64,000 nt of DNA, from assembly GCA_024579835.1 (NCBI GenBank), contig CP102060.1, forward strand, positions 1,959,558-2,023,557, given 5' to 3'. The notes beneath the pieces were generated by a model. It saw only the letters and a program-made list of their open reading frames with translations, made no database searches and had not been told where the DNA came from. Numbering within the stretch: position 1 is the first letter of the stretch; every line of letters begins with the position of its first letter. The position numbers were made by a program, and so were the translations under genes. The stretch comes from Clostridiaceae bacterium HFYG-1003 (GTDB taxonomy: Bacteria > Bacillota > Clostridia > Clostridiales > Clostridiaceae). Positions 28,120 to 51,115 of this stretch are shown one piece after another.

Positions 28120-28208
28120 AAGCCCTCCTGAACCCCGAACCGGATCTGCCCGATCAGGGGTATTGCGTTCTCATTCCCTTCATTTTATCACACACCCGCC
28201 AAACTTCT

Positions 28209-28217
28209 TGATATAAT
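28209..28217 (+). promoter_or_regulatory. Extended -10 promoter for the YusI-like selenoprotein gene
   Basis: TGATATAAT gives TG-N-TATAAT, 50 bases before the ATG at 28268. No good -35 is seen. It lies in the divergent gap with glpK. Confidence 0.55.
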
Positions 28218-28267
28218 GATAAAGGCAATCGACCAACCGAAATATAAGAATTAGAATGGAGCACGCA

Positions 28268-28639
28268 ATGGATCGAACGAAATTAAGCTTATACTGCTAC
28301 AGCAAATGAACCACCTGCCGCAAAGCCATGGCATGGCTGAACAGCAATCAGATTGAATTTCAGGAGAAGGATATCATCAACTTCCCGCCGACTTCCCAGC
28401 TCTTTTACGAATGGGTATTCGAGCAGGGACTGCCGCTGAAGAAGTTCATCAACAGCACCGGAGACAAATACCGCGAGCTCAACATGAAGGAGCGGGTCAA
28501 GACAATGACGGAAGATGAAATCATCGCCATGCTCGCTTCTCACGGCAAGCTGGTGAAGCGCCCTATCCTGACGGACGGACATTTTGTCCTGGCCGGCTTC
28601 AAGGAAGAAGAATGGGCTCAGGCGCTCGGTGTACTATAA
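28268..28639 (+). CDS. Selenocysteine-containing YusI/ArsC-Spx-family protein (UGA read as Sec)
   Basis: The frame opens at an ATG (28268) six bases after GGAG, meets an in-frame TGA at 28307-28309, and continues to TAA at 28637. Read through, it gives 123 residues: LSLYCYSK-U14-TTCRKAMAWL, then LKKFINSTGDKYRELN and KLVKRPILTDG. These match Bacillus YusI and related ArsC/Spx-superfamily thioredoxin-fold proteins, which have Cys-x-x-Cys where this has Sec14-x-x-Cys17. A hairpin with a GGC loop begins 15 bases after the UGA. grdA and grdB in the same window also need Sec. A sequencing error is unlikely because TGA sits exactly at the catalytic position and TGC/TGT is one base away. The substrate is unknown; it is probably a thiol-disulfide or reductase reaction. 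Confidence 0.85.
28324..28338 (+). promoter_or_regulatory. Candidate bacterial SECIS hairpin in the YusI-like gene
   Basis: AGCCAT-GGC-ATGGCT forms a 6-bp stem with a 3-base loop. The loop starts 21 bases after the UGA (within the known bacterial spacing) and begins with G, as bacterial SECIS loops do. Confidence 0.6.
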
Positions 28640-28692
28640 TTTTAGTACAGCCAACCCTTGGTTTTATACAAAAATTATGCAATTACTCCACA

Positions 28693-28725
28693 AAAGATAC
28701 GGGAAGCATCCCGTATCTTTTTATT
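28693..28725 (+). terminator. Terminator of the selenoprotein gene
   Basis: AAAGATACGGGA pairs with TCCCGTATCTTT around a 4-base loop, followed by TTATTT. Confidence 0.88.
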
Positions 28726-49819: not shown

Positions 49820-51115
49820 TTAGAATAGGGTCGGTTCCGTCACCGGCTGAGACAGTGCATGGACTGCGCGCTCTACCAGGCCCATTCGAAGCTTGCTTTC
49901 ATCCGGCGCTTCCAGTGACGGATTGCCGGTGGGATGCGGGATTGCCACGGTGGGCACGATCCGGTTCGCTCCTACTGACTGGGATATTGTAATAATGGTT
50001 GCCATATGAACGATCGGAATGCCGTACCGTTCGATTTCTTTGACCATCGTTGCACCGCAACGAGTACAGGTGCCTCACGTACTGGTCAGGATGACGCCGT
50101 CCACTCCGGCTTCCTTAAGTTCTTTTCCGATTTCCTTGCCAAAGCGAATGGAGTTGCCTACAGCCGTTCCGGTTCCGGTGGTTGTATACATGTATTCGAA
50201 GACCTTGCCGATCTTGCCTTCTTTTTCCATTTTGCGCAGCGCGTCCAGGGGCAGAACCCGGTCCGGGGATTCATTGGCGTATACAGGATCATATCCGCCA
50301 TGAATGGTGCAGAACTTGACAGACAGATCATCGAGCCCGTCCACGTTGTACTTGCCCCACTTCTGAGCGGAAGCTGACTGAATCCGGTCCGGATTTCCAA
50401 CCGGAACGATTCCGCCGGAGGTAACCAGTGCGATGGTGGCCTTGGACAGATCCTGAATCGGGGTTGCCGGTTCCACAGTATCAAAGGTGGGCATGGGCAG
50501 TTCCGTCTCATAAGGCTGATCATTGAGCCGTTTCATCAGCATGTCAACTGCGCGGGCGGCTCCGATCTGATCGGAAACTTCCGTAATGCGCTTGCCCTGC
50601 TTGAAGTATCCGTCCACCTTCGGATCCAGTTTTTCACCGGCCAGAAGCTTTTTGGCTACTGCTGCCATGCCTGGCAGAGCCTTTCTCATATCCGCCGCGC
50701 TGTTTCCGGTCGGGACGGTGTAGGCTTTCAGTTTTGTGACGGTGAGACCCGGATTTTCTTCAAACATACCGGATACCACGGGCAGATCATAGTGGTCTAC
50801 CACATATTCAGCCACGGTGGCCGATGCCATGCCGTAACGTCCGGCATTGAAGGATGGTCCGACCACCACGAGGTCCGGTTTCACCTGATCCATGGCTTTC
50901 TTGAACTCAGCCAGGGCTGGCTCGGTGTGCTCATTGATATAGTTGTCTCCGCAGATGAAGGTGGCAACGACTTTTCCCGCACCGCCAAGTTCCTTCTCAA
51001 AGCCCATGGCTGGTCCGACCGCGCCGTCTTTCAGTACCGGAGCAAAGTCCGCCTGATCTTCGCCGCCGACCTGGCCAAAGAACTGGTTAACATAGTATAA
51101 GATTTTCTTTTCCAT
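49820..51115 (-). CDS. grdB: Selenoprotein subunit of reductase protein B (GrdB/GrdF/GrdH type)
   Basis: Protein B binds the substrate amine and passes its carbon group to GrdA. The frame has TGA at 50075-50077; read as Sec it yields 431 residues with Sec347 in VILTST-U-GTCTRCGATMVKEIE, identical in form to known GrdB/F/H. The N-terminus NQFFGQVGGEDQADF and the IVPVGNPDRIQSAS segment recall the sarcosine/betaine members as much as the glycine one, so the symbol marks the family and not the substrate. AGGAGGAGG precedes the ATG. It is the last gene of grdX-grdE-grdB. Confidence 0.95.
50048..50062 (-). promoter_or_regulatory. Candidate bacterial SECIS hairpin in grdB
   Basis: In the sense strand CGTTGC-GGT-GCAACG forms a 6-bp stem and 3-base loop, with the loop starting 19 bases after the UGA. 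It has the same shape as the hairpin in the YusI-like gene. Confidence 0.6.

Follow-up and report, generated by a model that had tools for sequence, protein, structure and literature searches.

Does the TGA at codon 14 of a small reading frame in Clostridiaceae bacterium HFYG-1003 end translation, or is it read as selenocysteine (Sec, U in motifs)? The codon takes the place of the first catalytic cysteine of a Cys-x-x-Cys motif and lies within 64,000 nucleotides of contig CP102060.1 (GenBank assembly GCA_024579835.1, positions 1,959,558 to 2,023,557 of the forward strand), hereafter called the window, whose own numbering is used throughout. Read through the TGA, the frame at 28268-28639 encodes a protein with the features of the YusI subfamily of the Spx/ArsC family, and this product is very probably a selenoprotein. 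Published work is cited here from excerpts of the respective papers.

An in-frame TGA at the putative active site

A plain open reading frame (ORF) listing places the gene at 28328-28639 and yields a product of 103 amino acids from which the active-site motif is lost, just as the first-pass annotation of the window had foreseen for a gene caller. Translation from the upstream ATG covers 123 codons with one TGA only, at codon 14, and results in the motif Sec14-Thr-Thr-Cys17. The proposal that the TGA occupies the first position of the motif was thereby borne out, and a gene truncated by the plain ORF caller is now corrected (Table 1).

Profile searches with the read-through protein, in which Sec was read as Cys, gave matches to PF03960 (ArsC family; 71.7 bits, cut-off 24, residues 9-118) and TIGR01617 (94.1 bits, curated cut-off 75.05, residues 6-117). 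Both matches span the TGA, in agreement with the earlier statement that the frame fits the family on either side of it.

Were the TGA a real stop, the gene would be in decay, the base would be an error, or a short protein would start at 28328, the last being what the bare ORF listing returns. Several observations argue against this. The motif GGAG precedes 28268, while no ribosome-binding site of this kind is visible ahead of the ATG at 28328; residues 1-13 align with a relative from the same genus (genome G001) from its first residue; this TGA is seen again in 35 loci; and the genome possesses the Sec machinery described below. We therefore consider termination at this codon hardly credible.

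Assignment to the YusI subfamily

NCBI names TIGR01617 'Spx/MgsR family RNA polymerase-binding regulatory protein'. In YusI-subfamily proteins an RPI motif is present and the equivalent of Spx Gly52, a residue that takes part in binding to the alpha subunit of the polymerase, is absent from all members (PMC11481553). Both features were found in the window protein, which contains KRPIL and has Pro56 opposite Spx Gly52, as counted by hand on a pairwise alignment. It thus resembles YusI of Bacillus subtilis and OseR of Clostridioides difficile, compared here by their published descriptions, in TIGR01617/PF03960 family membership, position of the active-site motif, RPI motif and lack of a Gly52 equivalent; it differs in starting the motif with Sec where they have Cys, and the motif of OseR is CXXV. 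With canonical Spx it has the fold and the position of the CxxC switch in common, whereas Gly52 is replaced and the score for NF002459 (55.8 bits) is far from the cut-off of 123. Likewise, the protein is not a member of NF041106 (ArsC_rel_Se_1, ArsC family (seleno)protein; 28.6 bits, cut-off 85), although it belongs to the same superfamily and has the UxxC arrangement in common with it. Structural relatives in the PDB include 3gkx (E 1.2e-30), 2m46, 3fz4 and several Spx chains.

The name of PF03960 and the titles of PDB relatives, which read putative arsenate reductase, could suggest a selenium-dependent arsenate reductase. Such titles are names given by depositors, and the score for TIGR00014, the glutaredoxin-type arsenate reductase, was 34.4 bits where the cut-off is 106.05. 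Moreover, no ars gene was found among five scanned genes around the YusI gene and no ars family among the 25 neighbour families listed out of 152. An arsenate reductase is thus highly improbable.

Sec and Cys exchange among homologues

A search of 292 genomes, the window's own included, revealed homologues in 100 of them at a cut-off of E <= 1e-6. The relative G001 carries an uninterrupted gene with the same start, 56% identity over 120 residues from residue 1 and TGC at the site in question; a TGA stop followed by a separate downstream start, which would have spoken for termination, was not seen there. Inspection of individual loci identified TGA at the aligned codon in genomes G000, G051, G009, G101, G070 and G042. 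Among two further rows flagged for TGA, that of G251 has Cys at the site and that of G220 is a partial extra copy. Altogether, 31 distinct Cys rows show TGC or TGT at the aligned codon and 37 Sec rows, that of the window among them, show TGA, so homologues have Cys or Sec at this position as the first-pass annotation had anticipated.

About 85,000 genomes of the GTDB collection were scanned with the pattern Tyr-x-x-Sec-Thr-x-Cys-x-Lys-(Ala/Val) plus two constrained residues. This yielded 41 stretches, 35 of which matched the window protein on TGA read-through (phmmer E 2.5e-40 to 1.4e-9); the other six showed no match and were taken as chance. The 35 loci, to which genomes G009 and G051 contribute, are a lower bound because UxxV and UST forms escape the pattern. 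According to their records 32 belong to Bacillota, the others being from a Synergistaceae, a Synergistes and a Dehalococcoidia; one locus (L057) is absent from the tblastn table and counted in this read-through set only. With at least 35 loci, Sec members are not as rare in the family as had been supposed.

A phylogenetic tree was built from 68 rows (36 Sec, 32 Cys) and 121 columns; rows L053, L061, L075 and L082, which repeat other rows, were dropped, and L073 was too short. On this tree, which leaves 14 forks open, Sec and Cys have to be exchanged 11 times, and at least 8 of the exchanges fall on well supported branches. The window protein groups first with the Cys protein of G001 (99/95) and then with an Enterococcus Sec protein on a long branch (98/88).

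Further Sec loci deserve a note of their own. Contig LFTQ01000152.1 of Clostridia bacterium DTU068 carries two Sec YusI copies (L060 and L077). In Enterococcus sp. CSURQ0835 the Sec YusI gene (L080) belongs to a genome with SelB over the cut-off and has, as judged by eye, a GcvH-like gene downstream. A separate Sec branch nearer canonical Spx comprises L064, L090 (Ammoniphilus), L066, L070, L088 and L097, none of which passes NF002459 (79.8-98.3 bits, cut-off 123), and L065 and L076 with only 49.4 and 56.4 bits; these may possibly be Sec forms of Spx-like regulators. The TIGR01617 cut-off was passed by 8 of 10 distant or odd members scanned, with L065 (74.9) and L076 (73.1) just under 75.05.

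Selenocysteine machinery

The genome contains the selA, selB, selC and selD functions that the first-pass annotation wished to see confirmed. The tRNA-Sec gene scored 68.1 bits (gathering threshold 47) and SelB 371 (cut-off 242.25). Beside selB are encoded SelA (619.6, cut-off 267.9), SelD (368.2, cut-off 125), which itself has an in-frame TGA at residue 15, YedF (205.2, cut-off 110) and a cysteine desulfurase family protein just under its cut-off (370.2 versus 377). Near the tRNA-Sec gene lies a gene for GrdA (264.3, cut-off 130), again with an in-frame TGA, and a GrdB-type selenoprotein with Rfam SECIS_4 is encoded in the window itself (Table 1).

SelB was searched for in 40 genomes chosen from those found, namely 20 Sec carriers, 19 Cys carriers and G002, which is without a homologue match. 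It exceeded the cut-off in 19/20 Sec carriers, among them both Ammoniphilus genomes tested and the exception being the genome of locus L095, as compared to 5/19 Cys carriers (G001, G125, G041, G095 and G246), and also in G002. Thus, G001 keeps Cys despite having SelB.

A SECIS-type hairpin downstream of the TGA

Bacterial selenocysteine insertion sequence (bSECIS) elements are described by a loop of 3-9 nt, a stem of 4-16 bp, G in the first two loop positions, a spacing of 16-37 nt and a minimum free energy <= -7.5 (PMC13188914). The hairpin AGCCAU-GGC-AUGGCU at 28324-28338 lies within these limits, a segment of 56 nt folding with -9.9 kcal/mol. Its exact geometry together with a GG loop was found at one of 2,803 TGAs on both window strands, that at 28307; a looser hairpin rule is satisfied by 21/1,302 and 34/1,502 window TGAs. 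The hairpin resembles that of the GrdB-type gene of the window, which has 6 bp and a GGU loop and lies 18 bases after its TGA.

Comparison of Sec and Cys rows points in the same direction. Within the close family, 12/27 Sec rows (own included) but 0/32 Cys rows form the six pairs completely, and GCC stands at codon 20 in 18/27 versus 4/32. In the wider set, to which Sec rows with E above 1e-15 were admitted that are left out of the close-family counts, all six pairs occur in 14/37 Sec and 0/31 Cys rows. Codon 20, the top pair and the GG loop are the discriminating points of this region; G001, with the same six residues, is unable to form the hairpin (GCG ATG GCC TGG TTG).

These findings have to be weighed against a number of opposing ones. 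The energy z-score is 0.11, half of the shuffled sequences folding equally well. When these 16 residues were recoded at random with synonymous codons, on the codon use of nine window genes, 22% of the sequences formed all six standard pairs and 2.7% formed six Watson-Crick pairs; part of the pairing is imposed by the KA-x-x-WL motif, which is Lys-Ala-Met-Ala-Trp-Leu in the window protein. Paired cells make up 75.3% in Cys rows and 85.8% in Sec rows. Covariation did not exceed that of shuffles, 176/500 of which reach the score of the Sec rows, with Cys rows no lower, and for this reason it was not used as evidence. As the close-family rows are related sequences, independent tree pairs were evaluated and gave no significant link between hairpin and Sec (2-3/8 with the same sign, 0 opposite, p 0.25 or more).

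Rfam at the gathering threshold identified in the window SECIS_4 at 50037-50074 only and no SECIS family at 28324-28338, and when 28200-28700 was scanned permissively, the five matches were all weak and none was a SECIS. The GG-loop hairpin at bacterial SECIS spacing announced by the first-pass annotation therefore stands in its geometry, whereas an Rfam SECIS match was not found. Because the protein motif itself favours a hairpin, we treat it as supporting and not as decisive: it lies inside the bSECIS limits and is statistically weak alone.

Putative function of the predicted selenoprotein

The product would be a 14-kDa selenoprotein with a thioredoxin fold, a YusI-type member of the Spx/ArsC family. 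By binding to the hairpin 28324-28338, SelB would bring Sec-tRNA to the UGA at 28307 and thus place selenocysteine at residue 14. In chemical terms, Sec14 would attack as a selenol and become oxidised, be it by a disulfide, a peroxide or another oxidant; Cys17 would then close a Sec14-Cys17 selenenylsulfide, and thioredoxin or another thiol would reduce it again. Thiol-selenol redox work of this kind could serve the oxygen or peroxide response of an anaerobe. Selenocysteine is typical of enzymes, and for this reason we lean towards a small reductase, a role to which our analysis gives roughly an even chance, rather than a regulator.

The first-pass annotation held that substrate and role are not described. 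Neither is indeed established for the window protein; a member of its subfamily has, however, been studied. OseR of C. difficile, a YusI-subfamily protein with a CXXV motif, keeps flavodiiron and revrbr genes repressed when oxygen is absent, and of the mode of action of YusI proteins nothing is known (PMC11481553). Our protein could accordingly be imagined as a redox-sensing transcription regulator, likewise a selenoprotein, in which oxidation of Sec14 lifts repression of flavodiiron/rubrerythrin-type genes.

The existence of an oxygen-responsive repressor in the same subfamily, the NCBI name of TIGR01617 and the gene neighbours of some relatives favour such a regulator. Immediate neighbours were analysed for 69 loci (126 of 129 listed); an ODP flavodiiron-type domain occurs in 4/126, adjoining the YusI genes at L020, L021, L060 and L063, and a Fur-family gene lies beside L076. 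A similar flavodiiron-type gene is located about 4.6 kb from L096, L067 is flanked by genes for MsrB and rubrerythrin, L054 by one for an MsrA-MsrB protein, and L088 has a peroxiredoxin neighbour. Ten neighbours, including three of the four flavodiiron-type genes, were picked by eye and scanned singly. Together with the OseR reports these redox neighbours make an oxygen or peroxide role of the window protein plausible.

A side observation concerns three loci in genomes from the window organism's own family, all of genus g41 (L049, L050 and L051 in G101, G070 and G042), whose motif is UTSV, a lone Sec without second cysteine. It is the Sec counterpart of the CXXV of OseR and as such also speaks for a regulator.

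Other observations limit both the regulator and the oxygen-related role in general. The four flavodiiron-type genes all fall within one branch of the tree. The gene downstream of the window's YusI gene reached 21.2 bits for rubrerythrin, below the cut-off of 22.8, and lies beyond the terminator-like hairpin; among 29 loci (25 Sec) no neighbour is common to the Sec genes. Regarding the regulator in particular, Pro56 takes the place of the polymerase-related Gly52, and OseR itself is a Cys protein, for which the excerpts cited describe expression in a deletion mutant rather than binding (PMC11481553). A regulatory role is consequently a tentative alternative which we rate as possible and somewhat doubtful. 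Less probable still, and on balance unlikely, is the wider idea that YusI/OseR-type oxygen-response regulators repeatedly replaced their sensing Cys by Sec, creating a selenol switch on transcription in UxxC and lone-Sec UxxV forms.

Relation to described selenoproteins

Selenocysteine-containing ArsC-family proteins as such are not new. The domain model cd03032 is presumably the CDD class ArsC_Spx. Selenoproteome papers listed 14 UXXS arsenate reductases in 2005 (Genome Biology, PMC1088965), ArsC-like selenoproteins, e.g. of Desulfotalea, in 2006 (Genome Biology, PMC1794560) and 'Arsenate reductase 2' (cd03032, UxxC, 42 sequences of the Global Ocean Sampling) in 2008 (PLoS Genetics, PMC2398784), so that their prediction has been in print since 2005-2008. 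A 2026 review includes both an arsenate reductase (TIGR00014, UxxS) and an arsenate reductase-like protein (NF041106, UxxC) (PMC13188914). By its description, 'Arsenate reductase 2' resembles the window protein as an ArsC-fold UxxC selenoprotein, and differs from it in consisting of marine metagenome sequences (PMC2398784).

Our literature search found no paper joining 'selenoprotein' and 'TIGR01617', and among the matches listed for Spx or YusI with selenocysteine no Sec member was reported and no selenium-based transcription sensing was shown. Nor is a Sec member mentioned in the excerpts consulted from YusI papers, PMC11481553 among them. Within the literature searched, the clostridial Sec YusI branch, its many switches and the lone-Sec UxxV form therefore appear to be undescribed. 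A small redox family in which Cys and Sec were exchanged at least eight times represents a natural experiment on what selenium contributes. If members of the subfamily are regulators, as OseR suggests, some would be selenium-based transcription sensors. The main interest is whether the protein is an enzyme or such a sensor, and on our analysis a small reductase seems at least as likely as a regulator.

Gene neighbourhood and further features of the window

Table 1. Features of the YusI-type locus and a further selenoprotein gene in the window.
Feature	Position	Strand	Details
YusI-type Spx/ArsC-family gene, predicted selenoprotein	28268..28639	+	123 aa, Sec14-Thr-Thr-Cys17
In-frame TGA, read as selenocysteine (Sec14)	28307..28309	+	Aligned to Cys codons/TGA in relatives
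Cys17 codon, presumed resolving cysteine	28316..28318	+	From translation
GGAG, likely ribosome-binding site	28258..28261	+	6 nt ahead of ATG 28268; from sequence
Bacterial SECIS-type hairpin	28324..28338	+	6 bp stem, GGC loop 28330-28332, 20 nt UGA-to-loop
Terminator-like hairpin with T-run, downstream of gene	28694..28722	+	Seen in sequence, then located
GrdB-type glycine/betaine/sarcosine reductase selenoprotein	49820-51115	-	TGA 50077-50075; Rfam SECIS_4 at 50037-50074, 65.2 bits

The YusI-type gene is probably transcribed alone, given the terminator-like hairpin downstream of it; a simple terminator scan listed none. Divergently upstream lies a glycerol kinase gene (glpK), both in the window and in G001, and the five scanned genes around the YusI gene include, besides glycerol kinase, oxidoreductase-like proteins and a CstA-like protein.

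Leaving the family itself aside, none of the neighbour clusters among the 29 loci spans more than six of them. The two clusters of six consist of frames antisense to the YusI gene and, as judged by eye, of ABC-transporter-like genes, and clusters of three are mostly formed by the three g41 relatives. The GrdB-type protein of the window scored 596.4 for TIGR01918 (cut-off 65.45) and remained below the cut-offs of the glycine, sarcosine and betaine subtypes. The commonest Pfam domains among the 126 neighbours are those of ribonucleotide reductase and HATPase_c with 8 members each, to which no tie to function is made here. By eye, the ribonucleotide reductase neighbours belong to Cys loci of a Clostridium-like branch, e.g. 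L026, L028, L035, L041 and L042.
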